Positions 2,054 to 15,334 of a stretch of 64,000 nt of DNA are shown one piece after another. A program made the position numbers and the translations under genes. Source of the DNA: Marmoricola sp. Its GTDB lineage: Bacteria; Actinomycetota; Actinomycetes; Propionibacteriales; Nocardioidaceae. Every line of letters begins with the position of its first letter. The first letter of the stretch is position 1. The notes below the pieces were generated by a model. The model did no database searches, was not told the DNA's origin, and was given only the letters and a program-made list of their open reading frames with translations. The stretch spans positions 1 through 64,000 of the forward strand of contig JAOPYE010000012.1 in the NCBI GenBank assembly GCA_025964775.1, in the 5' to 3' direction.

Positions 2054-3275
2054 GTGCTGGCAGGGATCGACACTCACAAGGACACCCTCGCGGTCGCGGT
2101 CATCGACGACGGTGGTCGTCCGGTCGCGATCCGCGATCTCCCGAACACCGAGACCGGGTTCGACCTGGTCGAGGCGCTTCTGGCCACCCATCGGGTGGTC
2201 AAGGTCGGGATCGAGGGATCGGGCAACTATGGACGCGGGGTCGCACTGAGGCTGGTGCTGGGTGGGGGAGTCGAGGTCGTCGAGGTGCCGCCCTCGATGA
2301 CCTCTCGGGAGCGCTCGGCGCGGCCCGGTGCGGGCAAGACGGATCCGGTTGATGCCGTCGCGATCGCACGGATCACCGCACGGGAGCCGCTGCTGCCGCA
2401 GGTCCGCCTGGCCGTGTGGGAGGCGGCTGACCTGCGGGCGTTGGTCGACTACCGTGCCCAGTTGGTCGAGGAGGCCACCGCCCTGGCCAACCGGTGCCAC
2501 GGCGAACTGCACGGGCTGCTGCCCGGCTATCACGCCCAGATCCCGAACCTGACCACCCGGGCGAGCCTGATCAAGGCAATGGGGTTGGTTGAGGCCGATG
2601 AGCGGGTCCGCGCGGATCTGACCCGTCGACGGCTGCAGCGGATGCTGGCGATCGACGCTGAGATCCGTGAGCTGACCAAACAGCTTGGTCGGGCCCTGGT
2701 CGCCTCCGGCACCTCACTGACCCAGATCTACGGCATCGGCCCCGTCATCGCTGCCACGATCCTCGGCGAGGTCGTCGACGTGCGCCGTTACCGCTCTCGC
2801 TATGCCTTCGCCGCGGCCAACGGCACCGCCCCGATACCCGCATCGTCTGGGCGCACCAGCCGGCACCGGCTGAACAGATCGGGCAACCGGAAGATGAACC
2901 GGGCGCTCTACACGATCGCGCTTACCCAGATACGTGCTGAGACCGAAGGCCGCACCTACTACCGCCGCAAGCTCGCCGAGGGAAAGACCCACCGCGAGGC
3001 AATGCGCTGCCTCAAGCGACGACTCTCCGACCTAGTCTACCGCACACTTCACCACGACGTGGCTCTTGAGCACGCTGCCCCCACCGCACCACCGGCGCTG
3101 GCCGTCGCGAGCTAGGGACGATGGGCGAGGCTCGGCAACGGGACGCGACTATCGGCCAAGGCCAGCTGCGCGACAGGTCTCACAGTCCCTGATCCTGCTC
3201 TTCGCTCAAGCCAGAACGCTCGCCCACCGTCGCCACGACGCTACCTCCACGGCGTTGACAAACATAGAAGCTCAC
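1690..3275 (+). mobile_element. IS110-family insertion sequence (left end uncertain)
   Basis: A single intact DEDD transposase gene with non-coding flanks and no obvious terminal inverted repeats, as expected for IS110. The right end is supported by comparison with the remnant at 15026-15334. After both stop codons the sequence shares a CTCACAG word, a CTTCGCT-AAGC word, and finally TTGACAAACATAGAAG (3255-3270) against ACTTGCAACATAGAGG (15437-15452). The left boundary is an estimate only. Confidence 0.5.
2054..3115 (+). CDS. IS110-family transposase (DEDD recombinase)
   Basis: A 353-aa transposase of full length. The N-terminal RuvC-like DEDD domain shows GIDTHKDTLAVAV (first Asp), then VGIEGSGNYGR (Glu), and KTDPVDAVAIA (paired Asp). 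The C-terminal transposase_20 domain contains YGIGPVIAATILGEV and the Ser-rich segment PIPASSGRTSRHR that holds the family's catalytic serine. It starts at GTG 2054 with AGGAG 6 bases upstream. No frameshift is seen, so the element may be active. It moves its element by guide-RNA-directed recombination in the families studied. Confidence 0.95.
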   Translation: MLAGIDTHKDTLAVAVIDDGGRPVAIRDLPNTETGFDLVEALLATHRVVKVGIEGSGNYGRGVALRLVLGGGVEVVEVPPSMTSRERSARPGAGKTDPVDAVAIARITAREPLLPQVRLAVWEAADLRALVDYRAQLVEEATALANRCHGELHGLLPGYHAQIPNLTTRASLIKAMGLVEADERVRADLTRRRLQRMLAIDAEIRELTKQLGRALVASGTSLTQIYGIGPVIAATILGEVVDVRRYRSRYAFAAANGTAPIPASSGRTSRHRLNRSGNRKMNRALYTIALTQIRAETEGRTYYRRKLAEGKTHREAMRCLKRRLSDLVYRTLHHDVALEHAAPTAPPALAVAS

Positions 3276-3589
3276 CCTCGGTGGGGTCAGGTAGTTCACG
3301 CCGGATTGGGAGGCGCTGCGAACCGCCCAGATAGACGCTGCAGAAAATGACGCCTGGCCCCTACGCAAGGTCTCGGCAATATCTAGGCCTGGACTGCCTT
3401 CTGTGGAACTTCGGACTCCGTCGGCCGTTATGAAAGCCCACGCCCGCCCGGCGCCCGCCCGCCTGCCTGTCACGGGAATGCGTATCCAGTCAGGAAGCCA
3501 GAAGCCAGCGCCGGAGCAGTCGGCGACTGAGACGGCCTCCGAACGACCATCCGAACAGTCGGCTGGTCAACGCAAACGGGAGGAACGCC
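3116..3589 (+). other. IS110 right end and leader of the ubiquitin-like operon; no gene seen
   Basis: The first ~155 bases belong to the IS110 right end. The remainder up to 3589 has no credible coding frame: a long frame opening at 3403 has shadow-like composition until it reaches the E2 gene. The stretch contains a possible ECF-type promoter (3405-3429) and ends in GGGAGG, the ribosome binding site of the ubiquitin-like gene. Confidence 0.5.
3405..3429 (+). promoter_or_regulatory. Candidate ECF sigma promoter before the ubiquitin-like operon
   Basis: GGAAC at 3405-3409 and CGTT at 3426-3429 are separated by exactly 16 bases, matching the GGAAC-N16/17-CGTT consensus recognised by many ECF sigma factors. 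An ECF-type sigma gene lies at the end of the same gene group (7514-8149), so self-activation of the cluster is possible. The motif is short and lies 160 bases from the first start codon, so chance occurrence is a real alternative. Confidence 0.35.
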
Positions 3590-3916
3590 GTGAAGGAAAC
3601 AGTGATCGAGGAGATCGTCGTCGACGACGCCGGGTCGACCGCCATGAAGCTGGTCGAGATCGACCTCATCGAGGACGACAAGAACGTGGTCAAGAAGATC
3701 AAAATCTTTATCAACGAGGTCGAGTACAAGGCGCCCAAGCCGGTCATGACCGGGGCGGAGCTCAAGGCGTTGGCAGACATCGCCGTCGAGAACCAACTGT
3801 TCCTCGACGAGCCGGGCCACCACGACGACCCGCAGATCTTCGACGACGAGGAGTTCCAGCTCAAGTCAGGTATGAAGTTCTACGACGTGCCGGTCGGCAA
3901 CCTGGGTGCTCGATGA
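3590..3916 (+). CDS. Ubiquitin-like protein (bacterial multiubiquitin family, single domain)
   Basis: A 108-aa protein. After an acidic N-terminal tail, residues ~37-104 form a beta-grasp-like unit: KIFINEVEYKAPKPVMTGAE, a helix (LKALADIAV), and a strand ending in KFYDVPVGNLGAR. KIFIN(g)xxY...MTGxELKxLA and the terminal FYxVP motif are typical of the prokaryotic multiubiquitin family, encoded with E1, E2 and JAB genes. Only one domain is present. The C-terminus ends Gly-Ala-Arg, so a terminal Gly could be exposed by removal of two residues. GTG 3590 has GGGAGG upstream; the stop overlaps the E2-like start by 4 bases. Likely covalent modifier of unknown targets. Confidence 0.8.
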   Translation: MKETVIEEIVVDDAGSTAMKLVEIDLIEDDKNVVKKIKIFINEVEYKAPKPVMTGAELKALADIAVENQLFLDEPGHHDDPQIFDDEEFQLKSGMKFYDVPVGNLGAR

Positions 3917-4305
3917 GCAGCGGCACCGCGATCGAAGCCCCCCTCGAGTCCGATGAAGCAGTAACCGGCTCCGCAGGAGGCCTCGTCCTTGAGACCAAGG
4001 AACTGCCTGACTGTTCGACGATCGTCTCTGCGCTAGTGGACCTGCCGGAAGGATGGAACCGGACCCAGACCCGGATTCGGTTCGTTCTCCCGGTGGCCTA
4101 TCCCTCCGCGCAGCCCGACTGTTTCTACGCCGACGCCGATCTGCGCCTGGCTGGCGGCGCGATGCCAATGAACAGCGGCATGCAGCCCCTCGAAGGAGCT
4201 GAGCTCGTCTGGTTCTCCTGGCACTTGTCGACCTGGTCGCCGACGACCGATAACACCTCCACCTACCTCCGGTTCGTCGAAAGCAGGCTTCGCGATGTCC
4301 GCTGA
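3913..4305 (+). CDS. E2-like ubiquitin-conjugating protein (Prok-E2_E type)
   Basis: A 130-aa protein with an E2/UBC-like fold pattern: strand FVLPVAYPSAQPDCFYADAD (residues 57-76), then a Gly/Pro-rich segment, then WFSWHLSTWSPTTDN and a terminal helix. YPxAxPDxF followed by a Trp/His-rich segment is characteristic of bacterial E2 relatives found with multiubiquitin genes. Cys34 and Cys70 are the only cysteines; Cys70 lies in the PDC segment, but which residue, if either, carries the thioester is not established here. It overlaps both neighbours, which indicates translational coupling. It would accept the modifier from the E1 at 4295-5794. Confidence 0.75.
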   Translation: MSSGTAIEAPLESDEAVTGSAGGLVLETKELPDCSTIVSALVDLPEGWNRTQTRIRFVLPVAYPSAQPDCFYADADLRLAGGAMPMNSGMQPLEGAELVWFSWHLSTWSPTTDNTSTYLRFVESRLRDVR

Positions 4306-5794
4306 CTCCCTCAGTCCTGGCCCGTTCGTGCTCCCCGTCGACGAGCACTCCAAGCGCGGCGACATGAAGATCCTTGCTCCCGACTGGGACGTGCTTCTGA
4401 AGCACCTCCTCGACCACGGCGACGAGCACGCGGCGCTGCTGGTCTGCGGTCAGCAGGAGACTGCTGACTCGGTGACCTTCCTCGTGCGCGAACTCGTGCT
4501 CTTAACTGCCGCGGACTACCTCGACCGCGGCTCCCTGCACCTGTCGATCGCTCCCACAACCGTGGCCCGCGCAGCGAAACGGGCACGGCTGGTCGATGCG
4601 AGCGTCATCATGGTGCACTCGCACCCCTTCCCGGGGCACGTGGTCGCGTCCAAGATCGACCTGAGGACCGAGGCCGACCTGTGCCGCAGAGTCCTGCCGG
4701 CCCGGACCGGCCGCGCAGTGGCGGCCCTGGTCGTGGGACCCGACGGTGTCGACGGACGGCTCTGGACAAGCGCGGGCGCCGGCCCGTTCGACCAGATCCA
4801 GGTGCTCGGCGAGACCATCACCAAGATCCCCGTCAGCTCGCACGGCATCCCCACCCATCTCCGCGGCCGCCGCCGCTGGTCGGACGCGGCCGGTCCGACG
4901 AGCTACGAAGGCACGGGCCAGGCTGAAGAGGTCGAGAGCCCGACCGCACGCCAGGAACTGCTGTGGGGCCTGGACGGGCAGGCAGCCCTGCGCCGCTCCC
5001 ACGTCGTCGTCGTCGGAGCTGGCGGCACCGGTTCCCACGTCATCACCCAGCTGGCGCACCTGCGCATCGGACGGCTGACGCTAATCGACGACGACAACGT
5101 CGAAGTCAGTAACCTCTCGCGCATCATCGGGCTAGGCCCCAGCGACGTCGGGCGGAGCAAGGTCGCTGCATTGGCCGAGCAGCTCGGCCGGATCAACCCT
5201 GAGTGCATCATCGAGACCATCCAAGCCTCGGTACTCGACATCGAGCCGAGCCTGCTGACAGCTGGCGACGTCATCGTCTGCGCCACCGACGGACACGGAT
5301 CCCGCTCCCTGCTCACTGAGATCGCAGTGCAGTACTTCGTTCCGGTGGTGGACCTCGGCGTCGAAGTCGTGCCCGGAGACTCGTTCCGGGCCGGTGGTGG
5401 CGTCCGGGTCCTGCGTCCGGGGAGCGGATGCCTGTGGTGCGCCCAGACCCTGTCCCCCGCGCTGGTTCGCGAGGAGTACCTCAGTGACGCCGAATGCAGC
5501 ATTGAGACCCAGCGCGGCTACCTACGCGGCCACACCGTCGCGGCCCCGTCGGTCGTCGCGCTCAACGGCGTCGTCGGCTCGCTGGCCGTCATGGAAGTCT
5601 GCCAACTGCTGGTCGGGATGCTCGGAACGGGCCGCGACCGCCTGCTCTACCGCAGCGAGCAGCGCGCCCTGAGCACAGCGGCGCTACGAAGCCGACCAGA
5701 CTGCCACGTGTGCGGGCACGCCGGGGTCAGGGGCCAGGGCGATTCAGCCCGGGTCAAGACGCGCTGGCGAAAGCTGCCGGCTCAAGGGGCCTAG
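4295..5794 (+). CDS. JAB deubiquitinase-like domain fused to ThiF-family E1 activating enzyme
   Basis: A 499-aa two-domain protein. Residues ~25-165 are a JAB/MPN metalloprotease domain with HSHP (108-111), Asp122 and an upstream Glu near 44, the JAMM zinc set with one extra residue in the loop. Residues ~215-475 are a ThiF/E1 adenylation domain: GAGGTGS (241-247) for ATP, DDDNVEVSNLSR (265-276), and CLWC (379-382) plus CHVC (470-473) as probable zinc pairs; Cys401 is a possible thioester cysteine. One chain could therefore both trim the modifier precursor and activate it. It overlaps the E2-like gene by 11 bases. Confidence 0.9.
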   Translation: MSADSLSPGPFVLPVDEHSKRGDMKILAPDWDVLLKHLLDHGDEHAALLVCGQQETADSVTFLVRELVLLTAADYLDRGSLHLSIAPTTVARAAKRARLVDASVIMVHSHPFPGHVVASKIDLRTEADLCRRVLPARTGRAVAALVVGPDGVDGRLWTSAGAGPFDQIQVLGETITKIPVSSHGIPTHLRGRRRWSDAAGPTSYEGTGQAEEVESPTARQELLWGLDGQAALRRSHVVVVGAGGTGSHVITQLAHLRIGRLTLIDDDNVEVSNLSRIIGLGPSDVGRSKVAALAEQLGRINPECIIETIQASVLDIEPSLLTAGDVIVCATDGHGSRSLLTEIAVQYFVPVVDLGVEVVPGDSFRAGGGVRVLRPGSGCLWCAQTLSPALVREEYLSDAECSIETQRGYLRGHTVAAPSVVALNGVVGSLAVMEVCQLLVGMLGTGRDRLLYRSEQRALSTAALRSRPDCHVCGHAGVRGQGDSARVKTRWRKLPAQGA

Positions 5795-5799
5795 CGTCT

Positions 5800-6000
5800 A
5801 TGGTGGCGTGCATGGCGGAACCGGAGGAGAGACGTGCGAATCCCAGTTTCGTGCGGGACCTGCCCAGCGTTGCCGAACCGGCACCGGACCCGTTGGACCT
5901 CGACACCGGAACTTTCCGCGACCTCGCCGCTCAAGTCCGTGAGATCGAGGCGTCTCGAGCAGCGGCTGCGGTCTCGGGTCGCGACTACGTCATCCGATAG
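5800..6000 (+). CDS. Small unknown protein of the ubiquitin-like operon
   Basis: A 66-aa protein (62 aa from ATG 5812) starting 5 bases after the E1 stop and ending 21 bases before the peptidase gene. It is Pro- and acid-rich at first (VAEPAPDPLDLDTG), then has a helix with AAQVREIEASRAAAA and ends SGRDYVIR. No family recognised. Its place inside a tightly packed operon argues that it is translated. It might be a modification substrate, an adaptor or a peptidase partner; none of these is shown by the sequence. Confidence 0.55.
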   Translation: MVACMAEPEERRANPSFVRDLPSVAEPAPDPLDLDTGTFRDLAAQVREIEASRAAAAVSGRDYVIR

Positions 6001-6021
6001 AACCCGGACCGGGGCGTAGCG

Positions 6022-7431
6022 GTGGTCGACCATAGGCTCTGGTCTCTCGACGACGAGCCGGCCCAGGTAGTCGACCTACGTGAGATCGGCGCACTCGACT
6101 ACCTCGTCAATCTGTACGGCACACGGGAGAAGCGGGTGCTGCGGGAAGTGCTGGCTCAAGCCTACAGAGCCGGCGCCCAGACCGCCGTCGTCGAGTTCCG
6201 CTACATCGACGCCGACTACCGCGACGAGCACAGCGCCTTCTACTCCACAACCTTCCGTCGCTACCCGTCGGTGGCCCACCGAATCCACTTCTTCCTCGGC
6301 GCCGCCACCGACCAACTCGAGAATCCGGCCGAGCCGTTGAAGTTCGCCGACCTCGGATACCTCGGGTACCTGGTCGCCCGACCGGTCCCAGGTGCCCCGG
6401 TCGGGCGAGTCATGATGAAACCGCCAGCCGGTCTGGAGGCAGCAGTCACCTGCCAGGCGGAGGAGGAGGTCAACCTCTTCGGGGAGAACCTGAAGGTGAC
6501 GGGCACCCCGTTCATGGCCCAGGACGCGCAGCTACTGAGGTGCGCACACGCCGCGCTATGGGTCGTCGCCCGCCACCACCACCTGACCTGGGGAACCCCC
6601 AAGCTCCTGCCCCGCGCGATCGTCGACGCGGTGCCGATGGAGGCAGGCGCCGGGAGAACGTTGCCATCACCGGGACTGACGGTCACCCAAATGTCCGCGG
6701 CCGCGACGAGGCTAGGGCTCCCGCCGCTGGTCTACGACTTGAAGAATCTTGCGCCGGGCCAGTCCCTGCAGAGCATCGCGTGCCGGTACCTCAACGGCGG
6801 CCTGCCGGTGATCGTCGCCGGAAAGGGTCACGCGTGGGTCTTGGTCGGCTACACCCGGTCTCACGAGACCAGCGACGACCCCCGCATCGTGTTCATCCGT
6901 CAAGACGACGAGGCGGGTCCGTACCAAGTGGTCCCCGATTTCAACTTCGACGACTACTCCCCGTGGCAGTTCCTCATCGTCCCGCTTCCCTCGAAGCTGT
7001 ACGTGCCCGGGGAGGAAGCCGAGCTGGTCGGGCAGCGCTGGCTCACCGCGGCGTTCGCCCGCGACGGACTGACTCTCGACCCCAAGACCTTCGCGTTCCG
7101 GACCACGGCGATGCTGTCGAACGACTTCAAGAACGGCCTAGAGGACCGCGGGGTGCCGCCGGCACAGGCCACGACGCTGCGACGGGCGTCGATGTCGAGA
7201 TGGATCTGGGTCGTCGAGGCGGTCGAGCGCTCACTGCGCCGCAAGAACGAGCCTGCGGTGTTCGGCGAGGTAATCGTCGACGCCACCGACCACGCCCGGG
7301 ACAGGCGACCGCTGGCCTGGCGCACACCGGCGTCAGTGACCGTCTTCACCCCTGATAGCCGCCAGGAGCGCACAGCGACGTCCTCGACGCCTACGGTTCC
7401 CCTCAGGTTCGCGCGGGAGGGACTCGGATGA
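6022..7431 (+). CDS. Papain-like (C39-type) cysteine peptidase of the ubiquitin-like operon
   Basis: A 469-aa protein. The central part resembles the papain/C39 fold. A possible catalytic Cys174 sits in LLRCAHAALW with Gln167 or Gln170 upstream as oxyanion residue, His270 in GKGHAWVLVGY, and Asp295/Asp296 in FIRQDDEAGPY. These are the expected order and spacing of a Cys-His-Asp triad. An N-terminal region of ~160 residues has no recognised family. No signal peptide is seen, so it is probably cytosolic. It starts at GTG 6022. By context it may cleave the ubiquitin-like conjugates or replace a ligase; this is inference. Confidence 0.65.
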   Translation: MVDHRLWSLDDEPAQVVDLREIGALDYLVNLYGTREKRVLREVLAQAYRAGAQTAVVEFRYIDADYRDEHSAFYSTTFRRYPSVAHRIHFFLGAATDQLENPAEPLKFADLGYLGYLVARPVPGAPVGRVMMKPPAGLEAAVTCQAEEEVNLFGENLKVTGTPFMAQDAQLLRCAHAALWVVARHHHLTWGTPKLLPRAIVDAVPMEAGAGRTLPSPGLTVTQMSAAATRLGLPPLVYDLKNLAPGQSLQSIACRYLNGGLPVIVAGKGHAWVLVGYTRSHETSDDPRIVFIRQDDEAGPYQVVPDFNFDDYSPWQFLIVPLPSKLYVPGEEAELVGQRWLTAAFARDGLTLDPKTFAFRTTAMLSNDFKNGLEDRGVPPAQATTLRRASMSRWIWVVEAVERSLRRKNEPAVFGEVIVDATDHARDRRPLAWRTPASVTVFTPDSRQERTATSSTPTVPLRFAREGLG

Positions 7432-7513
7432 CGTACGTGAGCGACCGCGCGAACTCGAACTGTCACGCCGTTCCGTATACAGGTGTTGGGAGACATCAAC
7501 GGAGGGTACGGAC

Positions 7514-8149
7514 GTGAGCGACGACGACCTGGACAACGATCTCGTGAGGGCTGCGCAAGCCGGACAGGACCATGCGTCCGCGTTCCTGGTGAGCCGCTTC
7601 GGCCCACGTGTCCTGGGCTACTGCCGATCTATCGCAACCGACCTCACGGACGTCGATCACGAACGCATCGTGGAACTCGCCATCGAGAACGCGGTCCGCA
7701 AGATCGACCGCTTCGACCCGAACCGGGGGAAGTTCGGGACCTGGATCCGCACGTTCGTGCTCCACGCAGTGCAGGACTGGCGCAGAGGCCACGCACGGCT
7801 CGTCAGCCTGGACGACGAAGAGCGACGTATCTCCGAGCCGGCCACAGACGCCGTCGGCGCGGTTCTGACCGAAGCGAACCTGACCACCACCACCGAAGAA
7901 GGACCCTCCGAGCACGTCCGGCAGCTTGTTGCCGCCGTGAACGAGGCGCTACCCAAGTTGCGGACTACGGACCAGCTCATCATCACGATGCGTGACATCG
8001 AGGGCAGGTCGGTAGAAGAGACAGCCGCATCCCTGAAAATCCGCCCTGACGCTTGCCGTCAGAGGCATCATCGCGCGAGAGTGCGCTTGATGGACGTGCT
8101 GCGCTCAGACCCGCGCTGCGCCATCTTTCTCCCTGGAGACACTGCATGA
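7514..8149 (+). CDS. ECF-type RNA polymerase sigma factor
   Basis: A 211-aa sigma-70-family protein with only regions 2 and 4. Region 2 covers ~residues 20-100 (KIDRFDPNRGKFGTWIRTFV, then AVQDWRR). Region 4 covers ~150-200 (ALPKLRTTDQLIITMRDIEG, VEETAASLKI, RQRHHRARVRLMD). GTG 7514 has GGAGGG 7 bases upstream. Its stop overlaps the next gene in an ATGA, so the two are coupled. It lies 82 bases after the peptidase gene and may drive the cluster through the GGAAC/CGTT element at 3405-3429. Confidence 0.85.
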   Translation: MSDDDLDNDLVRAAQAGQDHASAFLVSRFGPRVLGYCRSIATDLTDVDHERIVELAIENAVRKIDRFDPNRGKFGTWIRTFVLHAVQDWRRGHARLVSLDDEERRISEPATDAVGAVLTEANLTTTTEEGPSEHVRQLVAAVNEALPKLRTTDQLIITMRDIEGRSVEETAASLKIRPDACRQRHHRARVRLMDVLRSDPRCAIFLPGDTA

Positions 8150-8736
8150 ACAACAACGATGCCCTGGCCCGCCTGCATGAACTGTTCGACGAGGACCCGC
8201 TTGACGAACAGCACGACGAACACGACCGGGATGGCGTCATCGACGAGCTCGTCGATGACGCACTCCTTCAGGCCGATCTGCTTTCGTTGTCGCAGGAGAC
8301 CCAAGAGCTTCTGCTCGGCCTGACTGAGAGCAGCTCAAGCCTGGAACCGCTGACCCGTAAGCGCTTGGTCGGAGCCGCAGACCGTGGGATGGCCAGGCGA
8401 CGCGACGATGCGAGCCCGCTTCCTCGACTGCTGTTCGTCATCCGCAACCGCGACAACCAGGAACTGGAGATGGTCGCTGCAAGCGTGAACGTCGAATACG
8501 GCATGCTTCGGGCCATCGAGCGTGGCGAGTGCGACATCCGCGTACTCGGCGCGGGTGGCGTTGCGTCGTGGATCCAGTTCTTCGGCGTGCCCGCTGACAC
8601 CGCGATCCCTGCCCTTCGCGCGACCTTCGCACTCGCAGCCGACCCTGACCGAGCTTCGGCGTCGGCGACAGAGACCCTGCTCGCCGAGCAGGACAAGTTC
8701 GTCGATGAGGTCAGCGAGATCCTCAACAACGCCTGA
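8146..8736 (+). CDS. Sigma-factor partner with XRE-like helix-turn-helix segment
   Basis: A 196-aa protein coupled to the sigma gene by an ATGA overlap. The N-terminal ~60 residues are very acidic (LFDEDPLDEQHDEHDRDG), followed by a helical region. Residues ~105-145 (NQELEMVAASVNVEYGMLRA then IERGE) resemble an XRE helix-turn-helix: the LAxxLxVxxxxLRxIExGE pattern is visible. No membrane segment and no zinc-type anti-sigma motif (HxxxCxxC) is present. By position it may be an anti-sigma factor or co-regulator, but no family was recognised with certainty. Confidence 0.6.
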   Translation: MNNNDALARLHELFDEDPLDEQHDEHDRDGVIDELVDDALLQADLLSLSQETQELLLGLTESSSSLEPLTRKRLVGAADRGMARRRDDASPLPRLLFVIRNRDNQELEMVAASVNVEYGMLRAIERGECDIRVLGAGGVASWIQFFGVPADTAIPALRATFALAADPDRASASATETLLAEQDKFVDEVSEILNNA

Positions 8737-8864
8737 CAACACCTAGGTACGCGACTTCGCACGCGCCCACGCTGTGAGTGCCGGCTAGTAGGTCATTTGA
8801 CGTCGTTGGCGAACGTAGGCACCCGCCTACTGCGACGCTCCACCGAAAGGCAGGCAGAGAAAAA

Positions 8865-8884
8865 CCCGGCTTCTCGAAGCCGGG
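8865..8884 (-). terminator. GC-rich hairpin, terminator-like
   Basis: CCCGGCTT (8865-8872) pairs perfectly with AAGCCGGG (8877-8884) around a CTCG loop. An A-tract lies on its left, so read on the minus strand the hairpin is followed by a T-run, the form of an intrinsic terminator. It could stop antisense transcription coming from the TcmP gene, or act as a boundary after the sigma operon. Confidence 0.5.
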
Positions 8885-8990
8885 CGTCGGATCGATCGTG
8901 ACCCCCGAACGGCACCGAGGGGCGGCGACACTATTCGCGTGCCGCAAGTATTCAGCGGCTTGTGTCGATGCCGTGGCCTACCGTGGAGGT

Positions 8991-9737
8991 ATGGCAGACG
9001 GCAGCGGTATTGAGTGGACCGAGGCCACGTGGAACCCAACGACCGGCTGTGACCGGATTAGCAGCGGATGCGACAACTGCTACGCGCTGACCTTGGCCAA
9101 GCGCCTCAAGGCGATGGGCAATCCGAAGTACCAGGAGGACGGCGACCCGCGTACGAGCGGTCCGGGCTTCGCCGTTCAGGAGCACCCTTCCGCACTGGAC
9201 CTTCCGTACCGCTGGTCGGCGCCTCGCCTGATCTTCGTGAACAGCATGTCGGACCTGTTCCATGCCAAGGTCAGCAGGCCGTTTGTTCAGGACGTCTTTC
9301 GCGTGATGGAGGAGACCCCGCGCCACACCTACCAACTACTGACTAAACGCCCTCGACGAGCTGCGCAGCTCGCGTCTGAGCTGCCGTGGCCAAGCAACGT
9401 CTGGCTCGGCGTCAGCGTCGAGTCTGAGGACCAGCTCGGGCGGCTAGACGACCTGCGCCGGGTGCCCGCAGCGACCCGTTTTGTTTCGGCGGAACCGCTG
9501 CTCGGGTCGCTCTCCGGCATCGATCTCACTGACATCCACTGGCTCATCGCGGGAGGAGAGAGCGGCGCTAATCACCGACCACTGGACCCAACTTGGGTGA
9601 GGGAGTTACGCGACTCCTGCCGTGATCAAGGTGTGGCGTTCTTCTTCAAGCAGTGGGGCGGACGCACGCCTAAGAGCAACGGTCGTGAACTAGACGGCCG
9701 CCTTTGGGACGAGATGCCGATCGCTACGCGGGCGTGA
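8991..9737 (+). CDS. Phage Gp37/Gp68-family protein (DUF5131), three-Cys-motif protein
   Basis: A 248-aa protein of the DUF5131 family. The N-terminus reads IEWTEATWNPTTGC and then gives cysteines at 20, 27 and 30 (C-x6-C-x2-CYA), the three-Cys motif thought to hold an iron-sulfur cluster as in radical SAM-like enzymes. Other family features are FVNSMSDLFH, LLTKRP, WLGVSVE, FVSAEPLLG and WLIAGGESG, then FFFKQWGG near the end. ATG 8991 is chosen because it begins the conserved block. It converges on tcmP with a 14-base 3' overlap; the two families are known partners. The reaction is not known. Confidence 0.85.
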   Translation: MADGSGIEWTEATWNPTTGCDRISSGCDNCYALTLAKRLKAMGNPKYQEDGDPRTSGPGFAVQEHPSALDLPYRWSAPRLIFVNSMSDLFHAKVSRPFVQDVFRVMEETPRHTYQLLTKRPRRAAQLASELPWPSNVWLGVSVESEDQLGRLDDLRRVPAATRFVSAEPLLGSLSGIDLTDIHWLIAGGESGANHRPLDPTWVRELRDSCRDQGVAFFFKQWGGRTPKSNGRELDGRLWDEMPIATRA

Positions 9738-10905
9738 GAAGGAGCGTGTAGAGGTCGTCAACACCCTTGGGATCCGTGGTCGTCGCGCCCGCCGATAGCG
9801 CGTTCTTGATCGCCTGACGCAGGTGCAGGCCGCGAACAGCGCCGACCAGGTCGCTACCGAGTACCTCCTCGGCTCGGTCGATGATGCGGAACGCTTCGCC
9901 CTTGGCTAGCTCGTCAACCAGCCGCTTGGTGAGGGCGTCGATCCACTGGGTCTTGAGCTTCGCTTCCTCGACCTTCCAGTCGGCCTCCCAATCGGCAGCA
10001 GCGCCGAATAGGTCGTCCTGAGCATCCTGCTCCGCGATGTGCTTTCGCCACTGTTCCAGGCCTTTCGACGCCGCCTCGCCGAAGGCGACCATGCCGTGGA
10101 TGCTGCGCGTGGCGAACACCAGGTAGTAGACGGGTCGCAGGTTGGCGCGTGGCTTGACGTCGATAATCCAAGTTCCGAGGCCACCCGCCTTATCGCGTAG
10201 CCGCTGCGCGTAGCCTTCCACTACCGCGAGTTCCGCAGCCTTCTTCGCATCCTCGTTGGCGTGTTTCGTGGGGCACTTCTCAAGCCAGGCGGCTCGCCAC
10301 CACTCACCACCGAAAGCCGAGTCCGCCGTCTTGAGCGAGTTCTCGATCGCCTTGTCGCTGTAGAGCATCCCGGCGAACCGACGCAGGTGAGCGGTCAGAT
10401 TGATGAGCACTTCGGTCGGCGGCGTGCCTGGCCCGCTTGGCCGCGCGAAGATCGCGGCAACCTGATCGAAGGGGATCGGGAGCCCGCACGGATCGAGGTA
10501 GACGAACACCGGAATCTCCTCGACGGCGTCGAGCAGCACCGGCAGATGCTTCGAGACGTTGCCATCGGTGATCGTGTAGGTCACGCCGACGCCTTCGTCG
10601 TTCGCGACCTCCTGGAGGCGGGCTGCCGTAGCGGGGTCGTTCTCAACGAAGTGGCATTCCACCTGGCGCGGGCTGGACATGCTGGCCAGCTCCTTGGCCT
10701 TACGAAGCAACATCGCCCCGGAACCCTCGGCGCCGTCGTCGTATCGGCCCGGACCAGCGTAGCCGTCTATGAAGGCCACTCGCTGGTCCTTCGACGTGCT
10801 GCCCGTCTTGCTGGCGAACGGCGTGACGTAGCGGTCCAAGACGGCGTGCTTCAGTACCGCTGCCGCCTTCTTGGCCTCGTGAAACTTGCTGGTCTCGCTG
10901 GACAC
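9724..10905 (-). CDS. tcmP: Three-Cys-motif partner protein TcmP
   Basis: A 393-aa protein beginning MSSETSKFHEAKKAAAVLKH and containing FIDGYAGPGRYDDGAEGSG, the hallmark of TcmP proteins, which co-occur with three-Cys-motif (DUF5131) proteins. VYLDPCGLPIPFDQV further on resembles the catalytic DPxG-type segment of Rossmann methyltransferases, so a SAM-dependent role is possible. The C-terminal third is helical and charged. It is encoded opposite the DUF5131 gene with overlapping stop regions rather than in one operon. Biological role unknown; such pairs are frequent on accessory islands. Confidence 0.8.
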   Translation of the reverse strand: MSSETSKFHEAKKAAAVLKHAVLDRYVTPFASKTGSTSKDQRVAFIDGYAGPGRYDDGAEGSGAMLLRKAKELASMSSPRQVECHFVENDPATAARLQEVANDEGVGVTYTITDGNVSKHLPVLLDAVEEIPVFVYLDPCGLPIPFDQVAAIFARPSGPGTPPTEVLINLTAHLRRFAGMLYSDKAIENSLKTADSAFGGEWWRAAWLEKCPTKHANEDAKKAAELAVVEGYAQRLRDKAGGLGTWIIDVKPRANLRPVYYLVFATRSIHGMVAFGEAASKGLEQWRKHIAEQDAQDDLFGAAADWEADWKVEEAKLKTQWIDALTKRLVDELAKGEAFRIIDRAEEVLGSDLVGAVRGLHLRQAIKNALSAGATTTDPKGVDDLYTLLLTPA

Positions 10906-11952: not shown

Positions 11953-12083
11953 AGGACGTGGCCCTGGACGTGAGCTGAAATTAGCGACGTCGCTCCGCCG
12001 CTACTCGGACGCGGCCGGACCTGCCGATAGGCATGCGTGGCCCACGGTCGCGTTGCGACCGACATTTAGTAGAGATGTGGCAA

Positions 12084-15025: not shown

Positions 15026-15334
15026 TTCGCCTCGGCCAACGGCTCCGCACCGATCCCGGCCTCCTCGGGGCGAACGGTGCGGCACCGGTTCAACCCTGGT
15101 GGCGACCGCCAGATGAACCGGGCGCTCTACGAGATCGCGCTGACCCAGGTCCGTGAGCAGACAGAAGGCCGGGCGTATTACGAACGCAAACGAGCCCAGG
15201 GCAAGACCAAACGTGAAGCGATGCGCTGCCTGAAACGACGCCTCTCCGACCTCGTCTACCAGACCATGCGCCACGACGCCCGAACTCTGGCGGTGGATGC
15301 GGCCAGCGCAAACGAGGCGCGACTGACTGCCTAG
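15026..15334 (+). pseudogene. 5'-truncated IS110-family transposase remnant
   Basis: An in-frame segment of ~102 codons matching the C-terminal end of the intact transposase at 2054-3115. It starts FASANGSAPIPASSGRT and includes MNRALYEIALTQVREQTEGR, then KTKREAMRCLKRRLSDLVYQ. Similarity to the intact copy begins sharply at 15026, and all of the DEDD domain is missing. The two are homologous but differ at many residues, so this is an older or different element and not a recent duplicate. The IS right end follows, to about 15452. Confidence 0.85.

Follow-up and report, generated by a model that had tools for sequence, protein, structure and literature searches.

A seven-gene ubiquitin-like operon of Marmoricola sp. 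with a papain-fold peptidase and a sigma/HTH pair, and a DNA element that precedes both the modifier and the sigma genes

Gene content and layout of the operon

The first 64,000 nucleotides of contig JAOPYE010000012.1 (Marmoricola sp., assembly GCA_025964775.1), the stretch called the window here, carry on the + strand at 3590–8736 a seven-gene operon that encodes a ubiquitin-like protein (Ubl), an E2-like protein, a JAB-E1 fusion, a small protein, a papain-fold cysteine peptidase, an extracytoplasmic function (ECF) sigma factor and a helix-turn-helix (HTH) protein, in this order. The source genome measures 3.93 Mb and is 94% complete. Ubl and E2 genes overlap by 4 bases and E2 and JAB-E1 genes by 11 bases. 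Gaps of 5, 21 and 82 bases separate JAB-E1 from the gene for the 66-aa small protein, that gene from the peptidase gene, and the latter from the sigma gene, while the HTH start lies on the sigma stop codon with a one-base overlap. A first-pass annotation, made from the sequence alone, had described this order with overlaps and 5–82 base gaps, and open reading frame (ORF) and family searches agree with it. It had also proposed that all seven genes form one extended unit; the same neighbours recur in other genomes, as described below, and a simple T-tract scan of 3000–9100 gave no + strand site that resembles a terminator.

The first three genes encode the modifier proteins. The Ubl (3590..3916, + strand, 108 aa) matches Multi_ubiq (PF14452, E 1.8e-7, above cut-off) and ends in ...VPVGNLGAR. 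The E2-like protein (3913..4305, + strand, 130 aa) matches Prok-E2_E (PF14462, E 1.7e-11, above cut-off) and the JAB-E1 fusion (4295..5794, + strand, 499 aa) matches ThiF (PF00899, E 7.5e-38, above cut-off). The N-terminal half of the fusion matches Prok-JAB below the cut-off (E 0.0066), with a readable HSHP...S..D metal-type motif. Bub operons bring together a multiubiquitin-type Ubl, E2, E1 and JAB. With a Multi_ubiq Ubl, an E2 and an E1 with adjacent JAB, the last recognised by its motif, the operon is by gene content of the Bub kind, and conjugation of the Ubl is predicted from these genes.

Recurrence and gene neighbourhoods of the peptidase

The peptidase gene (6022..7431, + strand, 469 aa) was sought independently of its neighbours. 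A single-sequence search of 394 genomes of the class gave four matches, one of them weak, and a profile search of 293 genomes of the order also gave four. Two matches came from 100 relatives of one peptidase-bearing genome and four from 72,556 plasmids. A pattern scan of a genome collection of 84,980 species returned 44 stretches, of which 19 hold peptidase relatives; the pattern was built from five sequences, three of them Ubl-associated, and may favour Ubl loci. None of 37 pattern matches in viral contigs was a peptidase relative, and a search of phages with the Mesorhizobium peptidase as query gave no match. After removal of duplicates and of one weak match, 27 distinct peptidase loci (L numbers) were obtained. 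The match left out (G223/L013) was judged too weak at 31% identity over ~100 aa. L041 repeats the record of L007 and L019 carries the gene set of L033; each of these pairs, like the shorter duplicates, was counted once.

A Bub-type E1 adjoins the peptidase in 10 of the 27 loci (window, L007, L010, L012, L025, L026, L027, L030, L040 and L076), which bears out the expectation that the peptidase recurs next to Ubl/E2/E1-JAB genes elsewhere. Six of the ten have a Multi_ubiq-type Ubl, found by Pfam in the window, L007 and L010 and by similarity in L026, L027 and L040. L025, where the contig ends early, and L030 show only the E1 of the Bub-type genes; L012 and L076 have a gene in the place of the Ubl, but Multi_ubiq does not recognise it (L012 was scanned). 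The peptidase also adjoins Bil genes in two loci (L011 and L032, PADLOC BilA and BilD in both), a type III cyclic-oligonucleotide-based anti-phage signalling system (CBASS) in two (L028 and L029) and IetAS in one (L035). Multi_ubiq itself is rare, with matches above cut-off in 9 of the 394 class genomes, and chance adjacency to the peptidase within 10 kb would therefore be rare.

All seven genes occur in the same order as in the window in L026 and L027, which come from two other, distantly related actinobacteria. Identities to the window proteins in these two loci are 51 and 50% for the Ubl, 56 and 57% for E2, 48 and 47% for JAB-E1, 50 and 49% for the peptidase and 40 and 38% for sigma; the HTH gene is at 6740–7339 in L026 and at 12070–12627 in L027. 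The partial locus L025, from a Mycobacterium-labelled metagenome-assembled genome, lies on a cut contig that ends after sigma and shows 63% identity for E1, 49% for the small protein, 67% for the peptidase and 53% for sigma. The two complete operons and the partial one make the gene order more than chance, and sigma and HTH genes follow the peptidase outside the window. In view of this recurrence, a chance association of the peptidase with sigma was rejected.

In L028 and L029 the small-protein, peptidase, sigma and HTH genes are followed by genes for a CD-NTase, a bacHORMA protein, TRIP13 and a TIR-SAVED-type effector. Matches are to SMODS (1.6e-8), PADLOC cyclase (1e-109) and bacHORMA (3e-47) in L028, to TRIP13 in L029 (1e-118; the L028 counterpart is 81% identical) and to the TIR-SAVED-type effector in both (4e-23 and 1e-26). 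Since both CBASS loci already have this effector gene, the peptidase is not their sole effector but an add-on. The first-pass annotation had viewed the peptidase and the sigma pair as an extension of the Ubl operon; this extension is recurrent but not specific to ubiquitin-like systems, as it is met with both Bub and CBASS.

Several loci have peculiarities of their own. In L012 (7815–10788) and L076 (7653–10156), which belong to one genus, the peptidase gene is in two pieces with ~1.3–1.7 kb between them, and a transposase-like ORF overlaps the gap in L012. L042 (9980–11076, Actinomycetospora chibensis) has a shortened, disrupted copy of the L031 peptidase in the same gene surroundings. In the Bil locus L032 (8125–9092) BilA ends in ...EQG and the gene in the E2 position matches DUF7665 (PF24702).

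Active site and fold of the peptidase

No family in Pfam, NCBIfam or PADLOC covers the peptidase and its sequence has no match in the PDB. When 14 peptidases were compared with Pfam at E 10, six families appeared with one member each, the best being C39_2 at 0.072. Alignment of 20 full-length relatives shows Q167, C174, H270, D295 and D296 to be invariant (20/20). AlphaFold2 (AF2) models were made of two sequences and searched with Foldseek. Model 1, the small protein and peptidase of the window as one chain, reached a predicted local distance difference test (pLDDT) of 82.8 and a predicted template modelling score (pTM) of 0.85. In it a helix begins at C174 and a strand at H270, and the strand that follows ends at D295. 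The 14 PDB structures that match it best belong without exception to UFSP, ZUP1/ZUFSP or Mug105, with E 3.4e-4 to 1.8e-2 and probability 0.93–1.00 but template modelling (TM) scores of only 0.19–0.39. Model 2, of a Mesorhizobium relative that is 29% identical to the window peptidase (pLDDT 77.8, pTM 0.82), found its matches among C39 peptidases, staphopain, calpain and BpJOS, a ubiquitin clippase; no UFSP is among the 50 matches listed, and the UFSP/ZUFSP link of model 1 was thus not replicated. A fold search of BFVD gave no match at E ≤0.001, and three uncharacterized proteins at probability 0.97–0.99. On the evidence of both models and the invariant residues the protein is a papain-like enzyme of clan CA type, with Gln-Cys-His-Asp order, as had been proposed from its sequence.

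All 20 peptidases have Ala, Val, Ile or Leu at His+1, and none has an aromatic residue there. In Ubl proteases that cut after GG this position holds an aromatic gatekeeper, according to PMC7391069. The Gly-ending Ubls adjoining the peptidase family end in LG(AR), FG, FG, QG and QG, and none in GG; those of L026 and L027 read ...NFG and ...TFG. Placement of Cys, His and Asp is of a similar kind in ZUFSP, as described in PMC5824887. Peptidase C78 (UFSP) is characterised by an Asp-Pro-His box and Cys-Asp-His order (PMC10318531). This box is not present in the 20 sequences, which have Cys-His-Asp order and DDxxGP instead.

In a tree of the 20 peptidases the six sigma-linked ones (window and L025–L029) group together with support 94/98, drawn open, and the CBASS-linked pair is one of four lineages inside this group. 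The tree, in which some rows are long-branched and the inner order is weak, is most simply explained by one exchange between Bub and CBASS.

The small protein

The gene for the small protein (5800..6000, + strand, 66 aa) encodes a C-terminal motif that is common to short ORFs just upstream of peptidase relatives and lies at a near-constant distance from the stop (16 sequences). The protein has no significant family in Pfam, PADLOC or NCBIfam, and the set of small proteins gave three Pfam families with one member each (best 0.0091). In a leave-one-out model, which omits the locus and its near kin and ranks all ORFs of that locus, the expected small ORF comes first in 15 of the 27 loci. Some of these first ranks are weak (E 0.63 in L043 and 0.16 in L076), and in L034 the first-ranked ORF is ~200 bases upstream of the peptidase. 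The small ORF adjoins the peptidase regardless of which immune module is present, and a partner of the peptidase is therefore its most natural reading. Our preferred guess is that it could be an inhibitor, by analogy with operon-encoded inhibitors of cysteine proteases.

The sigma/HTH pair and the 17-bp element

The ECF sigma factor (7514..8149, + strand, 211 aa) matches Sigma70_r2 and r4_2 (2e-9, above cut-off), and its relatives in L025–L029 are 37–57% identical to it. The gene for the Xre-type HTH protein (8149..8736, + strand) is coupled to sigma as first described, but the protein counts 195 aa from its ATG and not 196. Relatives are present in L026–L029. Alone, the window HTH protein has no significant family in Pfam, PADLOC or NCBIfam. 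HTH_3 matches four of five aligned members of its family, the window member not being among them (E up to 1, best 1e-5), and comparison with the PDB gave Xre-type and control proteins (best E 1.4e-4). No match was found in plasmids. A near-perfect palindrome with 19-nt arms, no spacer and 28 perfect inner bases lies within the HTH coding sequence at 8229–8266.

Lining up the upstream sequences of the sigma loci first revealed a 17-bp element, TGTCAC-N7-CGTA. One copy (3468..3484, + strand) is 105 nt before the Ubl start codon and the second (7461..7477, + strand) 36 nt before the sigma start codon. The element lies 11–37 nt before the sigma start in 6/6 sigma loci; before the Ubl it is exact in the window and L026 and has one mismatch in L027. 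The CBASS form has a single exact copy, which precedes the sigma-HTH and CBASS genes. When all pairs of a 5-mer and a 4-mer at any gap were compared over the six 120-nt upstream stretches, the element was found in 6/6, while 200 base shuffles never exceeded 3; L028/L029 and window/L025 are related pairs and the independent number is nearer four. The 64-kb window has two exact copies versus 0.07 expected and the whole genome three, two of them in the operon. The third copy is antisense inside an ORF and is taken as chance. No other independent locus with the element was found among 76 loci; the additional matches are duplicates of the window sequence. The element is thus telling by its placement rather than its frequency. 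A hairpin around it was sought by eye and dropped as inconsistent.

With one copy before Ubl-E2-E1-small-peptidase and the other before sigma-HTH, the layout of the element fits a regulatory loop, in which the reader may be sigma, the HTH protein or both. Transcriptional control of the operon by its own genes had been suggested earlier; the conserved element before Ubl and sigma adds to this, and the regulation itself we infer from sequence. The ECF41 promoter TGTCACA-n16-CGTC (PMC3426412) has similar words, TGTCACA and CGTC, but its spacing is 16 instead of 7. Unlike ECF41, the 211-aa sigma shows sigma2 and sigma4 only in Pfam and no fused C-terminal domain.

Comparison with known systems

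As in Bub operons, Ubl, E2, E1 and JAB are encoded in one operon, and a dedicated controller is also found beside many Bub operons: the accessible part of PMC13373217 reports CapW or CapH+CapP with 219 of 544 and CapK+CapS with 59. The window operon differs in that its candidate controller is an ECF sigma with an Xre HTH protein and a DNA element of its own, and by the extra small protein and papain-fold peptidase. That part of the paper mentions neither an ECF sigma controller nor a papain-like peptidase for Bub, and it states that a protective effect of Bub against phage was yet to be demonstrated. A literature search gave no paper on this gene combination among the matches listed, with primary Bub papers outside its reach. 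Ubl/E1/E2/JAB neighbourhoods, as well as phage tail clusters with papain-like NlpC/P60 enzymes and Ubls, are described by Iyer 2006 (PMC1779556), in the accessible text of which the term sigma factor has 0 occurrences.

CapH+CapP resembles the window pair in placing an HTH protein and a peptidase beside Bub, but CapP belongs to a different peptidase type (annotated as ImmA/IrrE in L010). Both coexist with the papain-fold peptidase in four loci (L010, L011, L012 and L076), which rules out the latter as simply the controller. At E up to 1 in PADLOC, the window peptidase and HTH protein have no capP or capH match. Similarity searches detected no CapH/CapP gene in the six sigma loci, where sigma, with HTH in five of six, appears to take the place of CapH/CapP.

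Bil operons (BilABCD) share the peptidase family in two loci, as noted above, whereas the window Ubl has no PADLOC match and its E1 matches E1-E2 models, with no BilD among 25 of 32 matches listed. With type III CBASS (CD-NTase, HORMA, TRIP13) the operon has the small-peptidase-sigma-HTH cassette in common; no Ubl parts were seen in L028/L029 and the window operon has no cyclase. The likeness to UFSP/ZUFSP (peptidase C78 and kin) consists of the model 1 matches and the ZUFSP-like Cys-His-Asp placement; the differences are that no sequence similarity was found and that model 2 has no such matches.

These comparisons bring to light a peptidase family that is unnamed in Pfam, NCBIfam and PADLOC, has a conserved active site and occurs beside Bub, Bil, CBASS III and IetAS. 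The sigma/HTH pair with its dedicated DNA element would join the described controllers CapW, CapHP and CapKS. The element and the conserved cysteine offer direct handles on how Bub operons act.

Possible modes of action

Several explanations can be considered. The one we favour, with a probability of about 0.45, is a self-contained, autoregulated operon of the Bub type, probably for anti-phage or stress immunity, with three exchangeable parts. In the first part the Ubl would be activated by E1, carried to its targets by E2 and removed by JAB. In the second, the small protein would be the cognate inhibitor or a pro-peptide-like partner of the peptidase, and its release would leave the peptidase free to cut host or phage proteins. 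The third part is the controller: the ECF sigma and the co-translated Xre-type HTH protein would act on TGTCAC-N7-CGTA before Ubl and sigma, and action on both copies would create a positive loop by which all genes of the operon are induced. The peptidase, and sometimes the sigma/HTH switch, look like modules that different bacterial immune systems can take up. An anti-phage or stress role, which had been proposed at first sight of the operon, is still a prediction, now strengthened by the peptidase family being found beside Bil, CBASS III and IetAS.

A number of observations weigh against this explanation. The genome count of the element, 3, is barely above that of a reversed-pattern control, 2, and the N7 spacing differs from the usual ECF promoter. 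None of the four immune operons adjoins the peptidase in twelve of the 27 loci, several of these stretches being short. The neighbour there is caspase-like in L008, of DUF5343 type in L020, a relative of the latter in L038 and a membrane protein in L033, and nothing was recognised in the others. Within the 394 class genomes, the single-sequence search found the peptidase in one of the nine with Multi_ubiq, namely that of the window, and it was not found in the seven other genomes of the same genus that were searched; it is therefore an accessory gene. The Ubls of L007, L010, L012, L040 and L076 lack a terminal Gly. The small protein is not top-ranked in 12 of the 27 loci, and in L020 and L038 another gene takes its position, DUF5343-type in L020. 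This gene precedes the peptidase at 8683–11003 in L020 (PF17278) and at 4631–6775 in L038, where the relative is below the limit used; type I restriction genes (HsdM and HsdR families) lie within 10 kb of the L020 peptidase.

A different and rather unlikely explanation is a switch by regulated proteolysis, in which the immune module triggers the peptidase and sigma is freed when the HTH protein, in the role of an anti-sigma factor, or else the small protein is cleaved, as in Calp/Craspase. Calp is a protease that acts on a sigma pathway in type III CRISPR immunity and is in that respect a precedent. The common cassette of peptidase, sigma and HTH in Bub and CBASS III, the one-base sigma/HTH overlap, the sigma-linked element and the grouping of the six sigma-linked peptidases would all suit such a switch. 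However, no sigma relative was found beside the peptidase in 21 of the 27 loci, so that sigma release is not its general role, and a DNA-binding domain such as that of the HTH protein is unusual for an anti-sigma factor. In the Calp system the protease reportedly brings about release of the sigma factor, and Craspase reportedly likewise uses a protease in a sigma pathway of immunity.

We give a somewhat smaller chance to the peptidase being a Ubl protease, which would mature the Ubl (NLG|AR) or deconjugate it as a second eraser beside JAB, with UFSP, ZUFSP and ATG4 as fold kin. The 14 best matches of model 1 and the Cys-His-Asp order and placement point in this direction, and a non-aromatic His+1 residue fits Ubl ends in FG, LG(AR) and QG. 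Against it stand the low TM-scores, the missing sequence match, the C39, staphopain and BpJOS matches of model 2, and the occurrence of the family beside CBASS III, in loci that showed no Ubl gene. The combination of these ideas, a full Ubl immune circuit with an E1/E2 writer, JAB as metallo-eraser, a ZUFSP/UFSP/ATG4-related second eraser for FG/LG Ubls and a sigma switch with a private promoter word, its eraser-switch cassette also being used in CBASS, appears improbable. Least probable is hitch-hiking, by which defence-island clustering would gather unrelated modules and leave the peptidase unconnected to the Ubl system: the 12 loci without immune operons, the missing congeneric copies and the adjoining IS110 would allow it, but it is contradicted by the fixed order in L026 and L027, whose Ubl, E2 and E1 are 47–57% identical to those of the window, and by the same element before both transcription units.

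Genomic setting

The operon had been described as lying on an island bounded by IS110 insertion sequences. On the left a full-length IS110 transposase ORF is indeed present at 2054–3115; on the right there is only a fragment of 81 aa at 15038–15280, which is 75% identical to the full-length ORF. The T-tract scan showed a hairpin at 8864–8885, 3' of the HTH gene, with a T-tail on the - strand only. Downstream, a DUF5131 gene (8991–9737, + strand) and a TcmP gene (9724–10905, - strand) are convergent and overlapping, and correspond to the PADLOC candidate defence pair PDC-M41B/A. Their position beside the operon suggests a defence island. The region 16452–63967 of the window appears to contain catabolic and transport genes, as judged from the start of each ORF only.

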